Below, piece after piece: positions 14,906 to 29,036 of a stretch of DNA of 64,000 nucleotides (position 1 is the first letter of the stretch; every line of letters starts with the position of its first letter). The stretch is taken from contig NZ_QQTY01000002.1 of NCBI RefSeq assembly GCF_003670115.1, forward strand, positions 992,001 through 1,056,000. The letters are read 5' to 3'. Source of the DNA: Natronorubrum halophilum (GTDB lineage: Archaea > Halobacteriota > Halobacteria > Halobacteriales > Natrialbaceae). The translations under genes were made by a program, and so were the position numbers. The notes under the pieces were generated by a model. The model saw nothing but the letters and a program-made list of their open reading frames with translations. It searched no databases and was not told where the DNA came from.

Positions 14906-16159
14906 TTACTCGTCCGCGTACAGCGGGTTCTCGTCACACAGCGACTGCACTTCCTCGCGGACGTCGGCGATAACGGCCTCGTCCTCGGGAGCGTCGATGA
15001 CGCGGGTGATCAGGTCGCCGACCGTCCGGCAGTCGTCCTCGTCGAAGCCGCGGGTCGTCAGCGCCGGCGTACCGGCGCGAATACCCGAGGGGTCGAACGC
15101 CGAGCGCGTCTCGCCGGGGACCGTGTTCCCGTTGAGGACGATGCCGGCCTCCTCGAGAGCCTCCTCCGCGTCCCCACCGGACGTGTCGGGGTGGCTCTCG
15201 CGCAGGTCGACGAGCACGAGGTGGTTGTCGGTACCCTCGGAGACCAGCGAGAAGCCGTTCTCGACGAGGCTCTCACCCAGGGCCTTCGCGTTTGCGACCG
15301 TCTGGGAGGCGTAGTCTTCGAACTCGGGCTCGAGGGCTTCTTTGAAGCCGACGGCCTTGCCGGCGATATTGTGCATGAGGGGGCCGCCCTGCCCGCCGGG
15401 GAAGACAGCCGAATCGATGTCGTCGGCGTACTCCTCGTCGCACATGACGATCCCACCGCGGCCGGAGCGGATCGTCTTGTGGGTCGAGCCGGTGACGAAG
15501 TCGGCGATGCCGACCGGCGACGAGTGAACGCCGGCGGCGACGAGGCCGGTGATGTGAGCGATGTCCGCGAGGTGGAGCGCGTCGACGTTGTCGGCGGTCT
15601 CCTGAATACGCTCCCACTCGATTTCGCGCGGGTAGGCAGAGTATCCCGAGACGATGACGTCCGGTTCGAACGCTTCGGCGTGCTCGGCGAGGCCCTCGTA
15701 GTCGAGGTAACCCGTCTCGGGATCGACCTCGTACTGCTCGACGTCGTAGAGCTGGCCGACGAAGTTCGCCGGGTGACCGTGGCTCAGGTGGCCGCCGTGG
15801 GTCAGATCCAGCGAAAGGATCTTGTCGCCGGGCTCGAGCATCGCGAAGTAGACGGCCTGATTGGCCTGCGTGCCCGAGTGGGGTTGGACGTTGACGTGCT
15901 CTGCGCCGAACAGCTCCTCGGCGCGGTCGATCGCGAGCTGTTCGACCTCGTCGGCGAACTCACAGCCGCCGTAGTAGCGCGAGCCGGGATACCCTTCGGC
16001 GTACTTGTTCGTCAGTGCGCTCCCCTGGGCGTCGATGACCGCCCGGCTGGCGTGGTTCTCGCTCGCGATCATCTGGAGCGAGTTCCGCTGGCGGTCTACC
16101 TCCCCCTCGAGTGCATCGGCGACGGCGGGATCGACGTCCCGAACGTGCTCGTGTTCCAT
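14906..16159 (-). CDS. glyA: Serine hydroxymethyltransferase
   Basis: A 417-residue PLP enzyme converting serine plus tetrahydrofolate to glycine plus 5,10-methylene-THF. Conserved pieces: QMIASENHAS, SRYYGGCEFAD, NVQPHSGTQAN, THGGHLSHGH, the PLP-binding HLADIAHITGLVA and STHKTIRSGRGG with Schiff-base Lys228, then RAGTPALTTRGF. The C-terminal part is normal. MEHEHV is taken as start because a TATA box sits 25-31 bases upstream, suggesting a leaderless transcript; an upstream in-frame ATG would add 16 residues without family support. Confidence 0.97.
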   Translation of the reverse strand: MEHEHVRDVDPAVADALEGEVDRQRNSLQMIASENHASRAVIDAQGSALTNKYAEGYPGSRYYGGCEFADEVEQLAIDRAEELFGAEHVNVQPHSGTQANQAVYFAMLEPGDKILSLDLTHGGHLSHGHPANFVGQLYDVEQYEVDPETGYLDYEGLAEHAEAFEPDVIVSGYSAYPREIEWERIQETADNVDALHLADIAHITGLVAAGVHSSPVGIADFVTGSTHKTIRSGRGGIVMCDEEYADDIDSAVFPGGQGGPLMHNIAGKAVGFKEALEPEFEDYASQTVANAKALGESLVENGFSLVSEGTDNHLVLVDLRESHPDTSGGDAEEALEEAGIVLNGNTVPGETRSAFDPSGIRAGTPALTTRGFDEDDCRTVGDLITRVIDAPEDEAVIADVREEVQSLCDENPLYADE

Positions 16160-16183
16160 GTTCGATGTGCGGTCTGGCGGCTG

Positions 16184-16190
16184 CATAAAT
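16184..16190 (-). promoter_or_regulatory. TATA box of glyA
   Basis: Minus strand ATTTATG, 25-31 bases upstream of the chosen ATG at 16159. Confidence 0.5.
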
Positions 16191-16377
16191 GTACCCGTCT
16201 TCGGCAAGTGGAGCCACTATCCGGTGCCGTCGAGGATACCGAGAACTGTCGACCACTCGCACGGTTGTGAGACCCGAACGATGTCGATTATCGGGTCGGT
16301 CCCCGGCAATTCACCACCCGTGTTCACACACCACACCCGATACAACTAACTTCACGGAGTGATATTCAGCGTACCGA

Positions 16378-18483
16378 ATGCTAGAGTGGGTAGTAGACGA
16401 CAATACGCTCCGTGTCACGGACGCCGATAACACCGCGTTGTCGGTTCACGGTGCCGATATCGTCGTCGAGGAGTCGGCTCCAGATATTCCCCGGCCGGTC
16501 GAGGAGACCCTCGTCGTCACGACGGACGAACTCGAGTTCCCACACGCGGTCGCCTACGCCTTTTCGCTCGCGGTGAACGAGCAGTACGAACTCGATCCGA
16601 ACGGCGAACCGCTTTCGCTGCCTCCCGACGAGTACATCCTCGATATCGATACGGATATCAAAACGTATCTGCAGTTTTCCGGCGCGGCGACGATCGAGAA
16701 AACCGACGACTACGAATCAATCGTCGTCTCCTTTCAGGACCGCGTTCGCGTGGTCGTCGGACTCAGGAGTCATCACGAACTCCCGACGGGGACGATCACC
16801 GTCCCCGACTCCCCCGAAGGAATCGCAACGGCCGTCAGTCACCTCTCCGCGTCCTACAAGACGGACACCTCGGACCGCACGTACCCCACCCTTCGTGGCC
16901 ATCCATCACTCGTCGAGCAAGGCGACAGCCTCGACATCCCCGATCACCTGCGGAACGAGGGCGACAGATCCGGAATCGAGATCGTCGTTCCGCCCGACTA
17001 CGAATCGCTGTTCGTTGCGTCGCCGCTGGCGTACTACCTGCAGGCCACCCTCAAAACCAGCGACTGTCGGCGAACTGGTCCAACGCGCCCGACGCTCCGC
17101 CTCCCCGCCCTCGACATCGAGACGCAACTGTCGCCAATGCCCGAGTTCGAGCGCGACGTCGAGCGACTGCTGCGCAAGTCGTTCTTCCTCGATTGCCTCG
17201 TTCGCAACGCGGGTCCCTATCGGACGAACCTGGCGGAACAAACCATACTCGAGACCCTCGGACTCGACGCCGGCGCCCTGTACGATGCCAGCCCGCAACG
17301 ACGACTCGCGACGTATCTCGACGTCAACTACGCCGCGATCGAACACCGGCTTCCGGACTGGCACCTCTCGACGTACGTCACGCCCGAGTACAACAGCATC
17401 GAGATGCTGCCCTTCTTGCTCGACCGGCTGAGCATGATCTACATGCCCCGAACCTCCGAACTCGAGGGCCGGGAACTGGTCGAGCGGTCCTTAGCGGACT
17501 TCTATCGCGGCGGGAGATCCGATAGCACCAGCCGCGACAGGGCGAGCACCGGGACGGTCGCCACGGTCGACATCGTCAAACCCGAACTCCGGAACGGACG
17601 GGCCCACGGCTGGCTCGCGGACGGCGTCCCGATCGACGTCTTCAAAACGACGCCCGAAGCCTACCACAACCGCCTCGACTACCTCGAGCGCTCGCGGGAC
17701 TCGACATCGATCTGCGTCGTGCTGAACGATCCCGAGATGGCCGGCGAACACGACGACGTCGCCGATATCTATCGCCGGCGCTCCGAGGAACTGGAAATGG
17801 ACGTGACCGTCGCCGAGTCGCTCACGACGGCCGACCTCGCGCGCGTCTTCGAGAGCGAGTACGAGTTCGTCCACTACATCGGCCACTGCGAAACCGGAGG
17901 ACTGCGCTGTTCGGACGGCTACCTCTCGACCTCGAGTTTGAGTCGCTGTAACGCCCAGACGTTCTTCCTCAACGCCTGTGGATCCTACTACGAGGGTATG
18001 GGACTGATCGAAAAAGGAAGCGTCGCTGGTGCGGTGACGTTTACCAAGGTGTTGAACGATCACGCCATCAAAGTCGGCTCGACGTTCGCCAAACTCCTCG
18101 TCCACGGGTTCAGCATCGAGCGTGCGCTGGGACTCGCACGCAGACGGATCATGATGGGAAAAGACTACGCGGTCGTCGGTGATGGCACGCACTCGCTCAT
18201 CCAGGGGGAGCATCGACTTCCGATCACCATCACGCTCGAGGAACTCGAGGATGCTGGCGACCGGTATCTGGTCTCGTTCGACTGTTATTCGACGCGGGTG
18301 ACCGGGTCGTACTACTTCCCGCACACCGAGGACAACGAGTTCGCCTACCTCTGTGGATCCGAATCGAGTTTTACGCTCACGGAATCGGGGCTCGTCTCCT
18401 TGCTAAACGAAACCGATGCGTCGGTCATCTACGACGGCGACCTGTACTGGTCGAAAGCGTTAGTCGACCAGTTCACGCGCTGA
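16378..18483 (+). CDS. CHAT-domain (caspase-like) cysteine protease protein
   Basis: A 701-residue cytoplasmic protein. Residues about 400-610 are a CHAT domain, a clan CD (caspase/separase-like) peptidase fold: beta strand EFVHYIGHC with His503 and FFLNACGS with Cys534 give the expected His-Cys dyad, followed by GAVTFTKVLND and the helical ERALGLARRRIMMGK end. The N-terminal ~400 residues are acidic alpha/beta without a fold I know (LVVTTDELEFPHAVAYAFSLAV near 45-66); about 90 residues of beta-rich sequence follow the peptidase part. No signal peptide or membrane span. CHAT proteases elsewhere act in regulated proteolysis and cell-death or phage-defence systems, usually fused to or beside sensor genes. 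Here there is no operon partner; glyA diverges and a TbsP-like regulator lies downstream. Confidence 0.85.
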   Translation: MLEWVVDDNTLRVTDADNTALSVHGADIVVEESAPDIPRPVEETLVVTTDELEFPHAVAYAFSLAVNEQYELDPNGEPLSLPPDEYILDIDTDIKTYLQFSGAATIEKTDDYESIVVSFQDRVRVVVGLRSHHELPTGTITVPDSPEGIATAVSHLSASYKTDTSDRTYPTLRGHPSLVEQGDSLDIPDHLRNEGDRSGIEIVVPPDYESLFVASPLAYYLQATLKTSDCRRTGPTRPTLRLPALDIETQLSPMPEFERDVERLLRKSFFLDCLVRNAGPYRTNLAEQTILETLGLDAGALYDASPQRRLATYLDVNYAAIEHRLPDWHLSTYVTPEYNSIEMLPFLLDRLSMIYMPRTSELEGRELVERSLADFYRGGRSDSTSRDRASTGTVATVDIVKPELRNGRAHGWLADGVPIDVFKTTPEAYHNRLDYLERSRDSTSICVVLNDPEMAGEHDDVADIYRRRSEELEMDVTVAESLTTADLARVFESEYEFVHYIGHCETGGLRCSDGYLSTSSLSRCNAQTFFLNACGSYYEGMGLIEKGSVAGAVTFTKVLNDHAIKVGSTFAKLLVHGFSIERALGLARRRIMMGKDYAVVGDGTHSLIQGEHRLPITITLEELEDAGDRYLVSFDCYSTRVTGSYYFPHTEDNEFAYLCGSESSFTLTESGLVSLLNETDASVIYDGDLYWSKALVDQFTR

Positions 18484-19210
18484 TCGGTCGAGTCCCGCCA
18501 ACAGTCCGTATTCGAATCAAAAAGTCCCTCCGAGTCGGTTGGCGTTCGCTGTAGGGTTTCGCCTGAGCGGGAGCTCCCATCGGCGCGTGCGGTGAGCAAA
18601 CGAAAGCGACCGTCGATTGATTTGTCGTAGTACTGCCAACCGGAACGAACGACTGATCGCCCTCCGGGATTCGTATTGCTAGTACAGTTCGATACATATA
18701 CCTACGTTATCATCAGTTATTTAAACGCAGCATCATTTTTAAATAGTATCGTGTAGATCATCTTGATGGATGGATCCAACATTCATCATCGAGGCTAGCA
18801 CCGCGCTCCAAGATGTAACCATGTTCGTTGCACAGTCCGTCGCTGACTTCAACATCCTCGATCGAGTTACCGAATACAGAGGACCCTAACCGAGTCAGCG
18901 CACCGCTGTTTTTATCGTAGCCACTAACCGCCACACTGCACACCCGACCGCATAGCGCTCGTACGAGCGGTGGCCACCGTGGTGCTCCGACGGTATCCGG
19001 TCGGTCGGCAACACGTGTCGTTTCTGGGGTTTGATACAGCTGTCGGTGACCCTACTATTGTTCTCGGAGTGTCAAATAATCTTGAAAAAGTACTAAAGAA
19101 TCGAGGGAGGACTTGACAAAAAACACCGGTATCCGCGCCAGAGTTCAAGTTGTAGCGTGAAAACGGCCAACAAAATTAAGTGCTTCGCAGCCGTTTACTT
19201 CTGTACAGAG
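18484..19210. other. 727-base stretch without a confident gene
   Basis: Lower GC than the flanks (AT-rich core 18690-18770 with tttaaata-type boxes on both strands). On the minus strand a TTTAAATA (about 18718-18725) is 21-28 bases upstream of an ATG at 18697, but the 74-codon frame behind it has a non-haloarchaeal composition. A second 61-codon minus frame (18758-18943) is also unconvincing. It could hold a small RNA or remnants of a lost gene. Confidence 0.4.
19172..19180 (+). promoter_or_regulatory. TATA-like box of the tbsP-like gene
   Basis: aaaattaag lies 31-39 bases upstream of the ATG at 19211. Confidence 0.4.
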
Positions 19211-20029
19211 ATGACCTCGAATTTACTCAACCACCAGATTGACGATATCCTCGAGTCCGTTCTCGAGGAGGCGACCGGGGACGTCTACATGGTTAATCCA
19301 TCGGCAGACGCCATCGAAGAGTTCGTATCCGTTGCAACCGAATTCGATGGCGAACGGCCGTCAGTGCACATGCTCGCCGATGAGCGCACGCTGAAAGACG
19401 TCATGGACGACTTTATCGTCGCCTCGAACGCCGCCGACCTCATTAGCGAGGGCGCACTCGCACTGCGAACGCTCGATGAGGCTCCCGAGAATTCGCTGTT
19501 GATCACCGACGATCGCGTTATTGCGATCGTGCACGCTGGCGACCGCGTCGGTGGCCTCATCACCGACGACGAGAGCTTCGTCGAGGACACCTACGACACC
19601 TACGCCGCCCGCTGGGAGGGCGCATCCGCGTTCAATCTCCGGACCCCGCCGATTACGGACGTCCGCGAGACCCTCTCCGAGGAGATCAGCCCCGAGGCCG
19701 AAGCCGACTTCACGTCGATTCTCAACTCGCTCGAGACCGCCCGCGGCGACGGAGACGGTCTCGACGAAGTGACGATTTCGCTGCTCGTCGCCGCCAAGAA
19801 CGAGGCCCTGCTGTACGACATCAGCAAGTGGGGCGAGGACGTCGGTATCGCCTCCAAAGCGACCTTCAGCCGGACGAAGACCAAACTCGAGGACATGGGT
19901 CTGATCGACACCGAGAAGGTCCCGATCGACGTCGGTCGCCCGCGTCTGCGCCTGAAGATCGGCGACGAGCGCCTCAGCGAGGCCGACAACGGCCAGCTCG
20001 CGACGGTCGCCCAGAGCATCCTCAACTGA
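19211..20029 (+). CDS. TbsP-like transcriptional regulator (DUF5821)
   Basis: A 272-residue acidic protein. The N-terminal ~190 residues form a sensor-like alpha/beta domain (MVNPSADAIEEFVSVATEFD, ENSLLITDDRVIAIVHAGDRVGGLI, TYDTYAARWEGASAF) and the C-terminal ~80 residues a winged helix (ISLLVAAKNEALLYDISKWGEDVGIASKATFSRTKTKLEDMGLI, wing GRPRLRLKIGD). This layout matches the haloarchaeal DUF5821/TbsP family; from memory, TbsP of Haloferax volcanii is a transcription factor that interacts genetically with TrmB in gluconeogenesis control. The start is the ATG after the TATA-like box; an upstream ATG would add 18 non-acidic residues. It stands alone. Confidence 0.8.
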   Translation: MTSNLLNHQIDDILESVLEEATGDVYMVNPSADAIEEFVSVATEFDGERPSVHMLADERTLKDVMDDFIVASNAADLISEGALALRTLDEAPENSLLITDDRVIAIVHAGDRVGGLITDDESFVEDTYDTYAARWEGASAFNLRTPPITDVRETLSEEISPEAEADFTSILNSLETARGDGDGLDEVTISLLVAAKNEALLYDISKWGEDVGIASKATFSRTKTKLEDMGLIDTEKVPIDVGRPRLRLKIGDERLSEADNGQLATVAQSILN

Positions 20030-28240: not shown

Positions 28241-28341
28241 ACGCGGCCTACGGCGTCCGCTATGAAAAGCCGGACGGTCGAACGAACCCCATCGCATCAG
28301 TAGTATGCATCCGTTATCTTCGTAGATAGAATTCATGCACA

Positions 28342-28350
28342 ATATTTATT
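28342..28350 (+). promoter_or_regulatory. TATA box of DUF7504-like gene
   Basis: atatttatt, 30-38 bases upstream of the ATG at 28380, in a short AT-rich divergent region. Confidence 0.45.
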
Positions 28351-28379
28351 ATTACACAAAAATTCAGTTGATAGAACGG

Positions 28380-29036
28380 ATGGGAGACGACCGATGGAGC
28401 GGGACGCCGAATCGTGCCGGCTTCGCACGGACGCTCAAGGCGCTCAAACGGGACGGGAGCAACATCCTGTTCGTCGGGGCGGATACGGCCGGTACGCACG
28501 GACTTCTCTGTAACAGACTGCTGGGAAAGATGGGGCGGACGCGGCGGTATCTGTTGGTCGTCACCGACGATCGAGATCGTATCCCACTGGACGAACACGA
28601 GACCGGGGGAACGGATCGGGTACTCGACTACTCGGAACTCGAATGCAGTGACGGATCGGAGCGGACCGACGGCGGCGAGCAACCACCACTCGGGGCGCTC
28701 GGAACCGAAATTATCGACACCGTCGACGCCTTTGATGACCTCGCTGAGGGACTCGAACCCTCCGAACTTCGGGTCTGTGTCGATTCGCTCGTCCCGTTGC
28801 TTCGGGAACACCCGCCGGAGAAGGTGTTCCGACTGCTCCACGTGATGACGTCACGAGTCGGCCAGGTTCGCGGAATAGGACACTACCATCTGCCCCTCGA
28901 GCGCGGCCACGATGCCGTCGCGCTCCTCGAACCGTTGTTCGATGCGACCGTGGAAATTCGTACCCGTGGGGGATCCTACGAGCAACGGTGGCAGTTCCGT
29001 AACCGAGAAATCGCAACTGAGTGGGTCCCGTTTTAA
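28380..29036 (+). CDS. DUF7504-like protein (degenerate RecA/KaiC-like fold)
   Basis: A 218-residue protein. NILFVGADTAGTHGLLCNRLLGK occupies the place of a Walker A strand-loop-helix but lacks the GKT/S Lys; then RYLLVVTDDRD, RVCVDSLVPLLREHPPEKVFRLLHVMTSRVGQVRGIGHYHLPLE and VEIRTRGGSYEQRWQFR resemble the later strands of KaiC/RadA-like folds. Haloarchaea hold many such proteins near HalOD1 and bacteriorhodopsin-type regulators; a sensory or regulatory role without ATP hydrolysis is inferred. An upstream ATG would add 15 residues that cross the TATA box, so 28380 is preferred. Confidence 0.65.
   Translation: MGDDRWSGTPNRAGFARTLKALKRDGSNILFVGADTAGTHGLLCNRLLGKMGRTRRYLLVVTDDRDRIPLDEHETGGTDRVLDYSELECSDGSERTDGGEQPPLGALGTEIIDTVDAFDDLAEGLEPSELRVCVDSLVPLLREHPPEKVFRLLHVMTSRVGQVRGIGHYHLPLERGHDAVALLEPLFDATVEIRTRGGSYEQRWQFRNREIATEWVPF

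Follow-up and report, generated by a model that had tools for sequence, protein, structure and literature searches.

Sequence analysis pairs a CHAT-type protease family with neighbouring micro-peptide genes across most Halobacteria

Results

The stretch of DNA analysed here, a 64,000-nt window, carries a gene for a CHAT-type cysteine protease. In the low-GC stretch that follows it (GC 0.51-0.54, about 18250-19250) lies a gene for a micro-peptide (Table 1). Both the 701-residue ORF and the adjoining low-GC stretch had been named in an original prediction for this DNA, and both were borne out. The protease gene sits between glyA and tbsP, and other window neighbours identified by family match encode RNase P p30 and Pop5; together these genes mark the DNA as haloarchaeal. 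Coordinates are positions in the window unless a locus label (L… or G000) is stated.

Table 1. Positions of the protease gene, its domains, the micro-peptide gene and the flanking genes in the 64,000-nt window
Feature	Position	Strand	Basis
glyA (SHMT), conserved upstream neighbour, context only	14906..16207	-	family match, synteny
CHAT-type (clan CD) cysteine protease gene, 701 aa	16378..18483	+	ORF, ATG start; dyad, fold, PF12770 matches of relatives
N-terminal beta-sandwich codons (residues 1-136)	16378..16785	+	model; weak galactose-mutarotase-type likeness
Middle alpha/beta domain codons (about residues 140-361), with PTLRGHP motif	16795..17460	+	model, alignments
Caspase-fold domain codons (about residues 401-612)	17578..18213	+	AlphaFold2 model, structure matches
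Catalytic His503 codon (predicted)	17884..17886	+	invariant, 47/47 orthologues
Catalytic Cys534 codon (predicted)	17977..17979	+	invariant, 47/47 orthologues
TTTAAA (TATA-like) box, 32 bp before micro-peptide ATG	18738..18743	+	consistent with leaderless mRNA
Micro-peptide gene, 39 aa, MDPTFIIEASTALQDVTMFVAQSVADFNILDRVTEYRGP, tail Y-x-G-P	18770..18889	+	ORF in low-GC stretch; tail common to small genes adjoining CHAT orthologues
tbsP transcriptional regulator gene, conserved downstream neighbour, outside module	19211..20029	+	family match, synteny

The window protein matched no model in Pfam, NCBIfam or PADLOC (in PADLOC, 0 families at E<=1), and searching solved structures by sequence, with the single sequence or a profile, found none. 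Its assignment comes from relatives and from structure. The 26 diverse homologues, some of them paralogues at about 30-45% identity, include 6 that the CHAT model PF12770 matches (best E 1.9e-5), while the window protein itself is unmatched. The His503/Cys534 dyad is complete and invariant in all 47 orthologues, and both columns are also invariant in the wider 26-member alignment. An AlphaFold2 model built from the 47 orthologues has a mean pLDDT of 85 and a pTM of 0.86, with a poorly predicted linker at residues 364-399. Residues 440-611 match SAVED-CHAT (PDB 8TL0) best (VIA-align Z 17.2, rmsd 2.5, 169 aligned; Foldseek with the model, E 1.2e-7), followed by gingipain RgpB (Z 16.6), separase (15.9) and TPR-CHAT (12.7). 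The original prediction had staked itself on a conserved dyad and on a caspase-like fold between residues 400 and 610, and it stands on both counts. The ORF is a real gene and encodes a clan CD (CHAT-type) cysteine protease. Judging from sequence and model, its product looks like a catalytically competent endopeptidase.

The N-terminal half had been described as uncharacterised. By sequence it does fall outside known families, but the model resolves it into two folded domains (pLDDT 90 for residues 1-366 modelled separately). The beta-sandwich weakly resembles galactose-mutarotase sandwiches (Z 8.8, rmsd 3.4, 128 aligned) and the alpha/beta domain is best matched by Cwp6 (Z 7.6, 140 aligned), both near the tool's stated background level; we therefore claim no sensor function. 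With the N-terminal half alone, Foldseek returned nothing under E 0.001, and TPR or SAVED structures were absent among the matches listed. The suggestion that this half might be compared with known sensor folds thus yielded a folded pair of domains and, in the model, no recognisable sensor. The PTLRGHP motif (residues 170-176) of the alpha/beta domain is nearly unchanged family-wide.

Across 72 orthologue loci, the order divergent glyA, CHAT gene, codirectional tbsP is almost always kept. At least one CHAT homologue is present in 89 of the 100 relatives searched, which comprised Natrialbaceae and other Halobacteria, and in 77 of the 82 of good quality. No relatives were found in the viral contigs and phages searched, and haloarchaeal plasmids carry paralogues at 30-37% identity. 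The CHAT gene belongs to the core genome of Halobacteria and has been inherited vertically; its pattern is not that of a defence island. The fixed synteny, the near-constant presence, the empty PADLOC search and the absence from viral and phage sequences all speak against the defence or death context hinted at in the original prediction. Since the gene is a conserved core gene, a role in regulatory or housekeeping proteolysis is likelier than one in phage defence. Outside Halobacteria, distant methanogen-like CHAT relatives occur in one family of the same phylum (L172-L175), near dnaG-like and N-acetyltransferase-like genes, and no convincing peptide partner was seen at these loci.

By contrast with the claim that the protease stands alone with no partner gene, the gene neighbourhoods of its homologues point to a small-peptide partner. 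Most orthologues are followed, a few to a few hundred bp past the CHAT stop, by a gene of 20-60 codons that is usually convergent and ends in Tyr-x-Gly-Pro-stop. The 72 orthologue loci, together about 1 Mb, contain 46 of these ORFs; 2 overlap the CHAT stop, the other 44 lie no more than 700 bp from it, and none occurs away from the CHAT 3' end. The invariance of Y, G and P among the 46 follows by construction from the search pattern. However the tail is encoded with all four Gly codons (GGC 16, GGA 11, GGT 10, GGG 8), all four Pro codons (CCG 26, CCC 15, CCA 3, CCT 1) and all three stops (TAG 18, TAA 14, TGA 13), and because it varies synonymously it has been selected as protein. The residues before the tail, usually AKRVST, are conserved, and the N-terminal part of the peptide is variable. 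A genome-wide search of 11 genomes for S-T-Y-[GS]-G-P-stop gave 4 matches, all beside CHAT, compared with 0 for the reversed pattern.

The TTTAAA-type box of the window peptide gene recurs at equal spacing before several related peptide genes. TATA-like boxes precede 33 of 45 window-type genes vs. 45% in shuffles, a moderate enrichment only, and we dropped it as too weak to serve as proof of peptide genes. The window-type peptides have no signal-like segment (median best-15 hydropathy 0.22), and the peptide of this clade looks cytoplasmic. The window's own peptide gene is a codirectional variant. Two sister genomes have tbsP at a distance from CHAT, and there this variant was found with tbsP. 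These copies are MDPT...EYRGP variants upstream of tbsP (L179 2545-2664 (-) and L181 2559-2678 (-)). In Natronorubrum texcoconense, two Y-x-G-P genes lie between CHAT and tbsP, one convergent (L034 8119-8268 (-)) and one codirectional (L034 8554-8673 (+)). At the window locus, the link between protease and peptide would draw on the common tail and position, and is made less strongly than for the convergent copies.

A second kind of peptide accompanies the CHAT paralogues, which are ~35% identical and occupy unrelated loci where neither tbsP nor glyA is close by. These adjoin the Pfam family DUF7503 (PF24335), found within 2 kb of 65 of the 70 listed paralogues. Of the adjacent genes, 63 of 64 are convergent with CHAT, at gaps of 6-284 bp. 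The paralogue peptides score 71-75 bits against PF24335 (cut-off 27), whereas the window peptide has no DUF7503 match. Further DUF7503 loci, chosen because no CHAT was listed nearby, nearly all had a convergent CHAT gene, the exceptions being L136 (CHAT 4.5 kb off), L151 and the contig-edge L165. Of 100 genomes, CHAT and DUF7503 occur together in 85; 4 have CHAT only, none has DUF7503 only and 11 have neither (Fisher p = 1e-11, only a guide given that the genomes are related). DUF7503 was found in 250 of 292 Halobacteria. At each of three plasmid loci inspected later, an unannotated convergent GP-ending peptide lay at most 4 bp from the CHAT stop. Across most Halobacteria, then, sequence comparison pairs the CHAT family with a neighbouring micro-peptide gene. 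Halorussus orthologues of the window gene have DUF7503-like NPRA...GP peptides that fall below a Pfam DUF7503 match, suggesting that the two peptide kinds are linked and may derive from one ancestral arrangement with a fast-changing peptide.

The DUF7503-type peptides contain a strongly hydrophobic stretch (median best-15 hydropathy about 2), and in 40 of 48 it is followed, close to the C-terminus, by an A/V-x-A site. The tails past this site are mostly 4-9 residues long and usually end in Gly-Pro, and most members of the family have a peptide that seems to be exported or inserted into the membrane. In one CHAT clade (L117, L124, L138, L141, L142, L146, L153 and others) the tails are GGT-like, not Gly-Pro. 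Mapped on the CHAT tree, tail classes change 19 times, compared with 46.9 in shuffles (0/200 as low). Tail type thus follows protease clade, a clustering that may be plain co-inheritance.

The pairing has gaps. No recognisable peptide was seen beside the orthologues of the Halorientalis/Haloarcula/Halomicrobium group, in at least two Natronorubrum relatives, or beside second tandem CHAT copies. In the window's own genome, G000:C4:135751-140623 (L106 10713-15630) holds a tandem pair of CHAT paralogues separated by DUF7503 and preceded by DUF7504, flanked by EF-2/DUF5781 and a ribosomal protein S7-like gene. The second copy there is without a peptide, and second tandem copies like it form a single clade.

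Discussion

We put at about one in two the probability that the protease has the micro-peptide as its cognate ligand and recognises it through the free C-terminal tail. The tail is proposed as the recognition element because it is common to both peptide kinds. The CHAT protease, or its N-terminal half, would recognise this tail, and the bound peptide would gate the protease as ligand or pseudosubstrate, or would be clipped by it. We rejected an obligate toxin-antitoxin pair in which the peptide would be the antidote: some lineages keep a CHAT with an intact dyad and no recognisable peptide, and the peptide is therefore not an obligate antidote.

Among the alternatives, the peptide may simply be the substrate. 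CHAT would cleave DUF7503 behind the Arg of [HN]PR, or the window type behind the K/R that precedes VSTYGGP, freeing a membrane-active or signalling fragment. We think this unlikely, even though the Arg of [HN]PR is found in 43 of 48 DUF7503-type peptides, R stands at -8 in 30 of 45 window-type peptides, and the closest fold relatives include the Arg/Lys-specific gingipains and the Arg-specific separase. Gly occupies -8 in another 12 of the 45, no cut site is common to both kinds, and cleavage specificity is not readable from a fold.

Slightly less probable, in our estimate, is peptide signalling. DUF7503 would be a signal peptide with a mature tail of 4-9 residues. After export and release by signal peptidase, this tail would be taken up again and sensed by cytoplasmic CHAT. 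The A/V-x-A sites, tail lengths and clade-specific tails described above fit this scheme, but the window-type peptides have no signal-like segment and there is no linked importer. Functionally it would resemble arbitrium/RRNPP peptide systems, whose receptors are TPR proteins, usually DNA-binding. Those systems likewise have a tiny gene beside the receptor, with a signal-like N-terminus and a short conserved C-terminal tail, whereas the receptor proposed here is a protease.

It is doubtful that the protease acts without a partner and that the small genes just happen to share its intergenic region, perhaps tied to tbsP regulation or 3' antisense control. The codirectional peptide does stay upstream of tbsP without CHAT in the two sister genomes, and some CHAT genes have no peptide. 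Still, the paralogues have an equal arrangement at loci free of tbsP and glyA, and the tail is conserved at the protein level. Finally, CHAT proteases often act in defence or abortive-infection systems and plasmids also carry paralogues, but a defence effector whose antidote or trigger is the peptide is very improbable here given the core synteny and near-universal occurrence of the window type, the lack of a PADLOC match or of copies in the phages and viral contigs searched, and the retention of intact-dyad CHAT where no peptide was found.

The window protein shares with known CHAT peptidases (PF12770; clan CD) the caspase fold, the His/Cys dyad and family-level PF12770 matches. It differs in lying below Pfam detection, in having no recognised TPR or SAVED domain, and in its beta-sandwich plus alpha/beta N-terminal half and micro-peptide neighbour. 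The nearest solved protease folds, SAVED-CHAT and TPR-CHAT/Csx29 of Craspase (Z 17.2 and about 12), belong to CRISPR effectors whose gating depends on cyclic nucleotides or RNA. Their N-terminal domains look unlike that of the window protein, for which no CRISPR link was seen. The pairing ties DUF7503 to a protease and would be a new mode of CHAT protease control.

The family may also bear on an older observation. Caspase-like activity is strong in haloarchaeal extracts and dominant in those of Haloferax volcanii, where it has no known gene, yet archaea had been described as having no homologues of caspases (PMC3615174). Like the proposed CHAT role, that activity is haloarchaeal, caspase-like and was given a proposed housekeeping role; its specificity was reported as resembling caspase-4 (PMC3615174). 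Haloferax volcanii has DUF7504 as well as DUF7503, and so, by the pairing of DUF7503 with CHAT, probably a CHAT relative too. A PF12770 search gave no match in this species, which could explain why the protease was missed. Hypothetically, then, the CHAT family is a candidate for this orphan activity, and, present in 89 of the 100 relatives searched and with an intact dyad, it is a testable candidate for haloarchaeal caspase-like activity generally. It strikes us as quite improbable that a caspase-fold protease both acts inside the cell as the receptor for short gene-encoded peptides whose C-terminal tails are clade-specific, in an archaeal peptide-signalling or self-recognition system with the protease itself as sensor, and is the source of that activity.

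Searches of the open-licence literature for DUF7503, for DUF7504 and for haloarchaea with "CHAT domain" found no papers, and a wider search had no haloarchaeal paper with "CHAT domain" among its ten best matches. The pairing thus appears undescribed in the open-licence literature searched, although absence is not proof.

Function hypotheses are gained for two curated families of unknown function, DUF7503 and DUF7504. DUF7503 (PF24335) supplies the adjacent convergent micro-peptide of the paralogues, with its short, usually Gly-Pro tail; the window-type peptides differ in being unmatched by its model and in lacking the hydrophobic segment. DUF7504 (PF24336), sometimes with HalOD1, lies directly upstream of many CHAT paralogues, and is a larger, multi-copy family that is not CHAT-specific and does not adjoin the window gene. 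A DUF7504 gene also occurs in the window at 28335-29036 (+), 10 kb from the CHAT gene, and in several relatives a copy likewise lies about 10-12 kb from the CHAT orthologue, a spacing that seems conserved.
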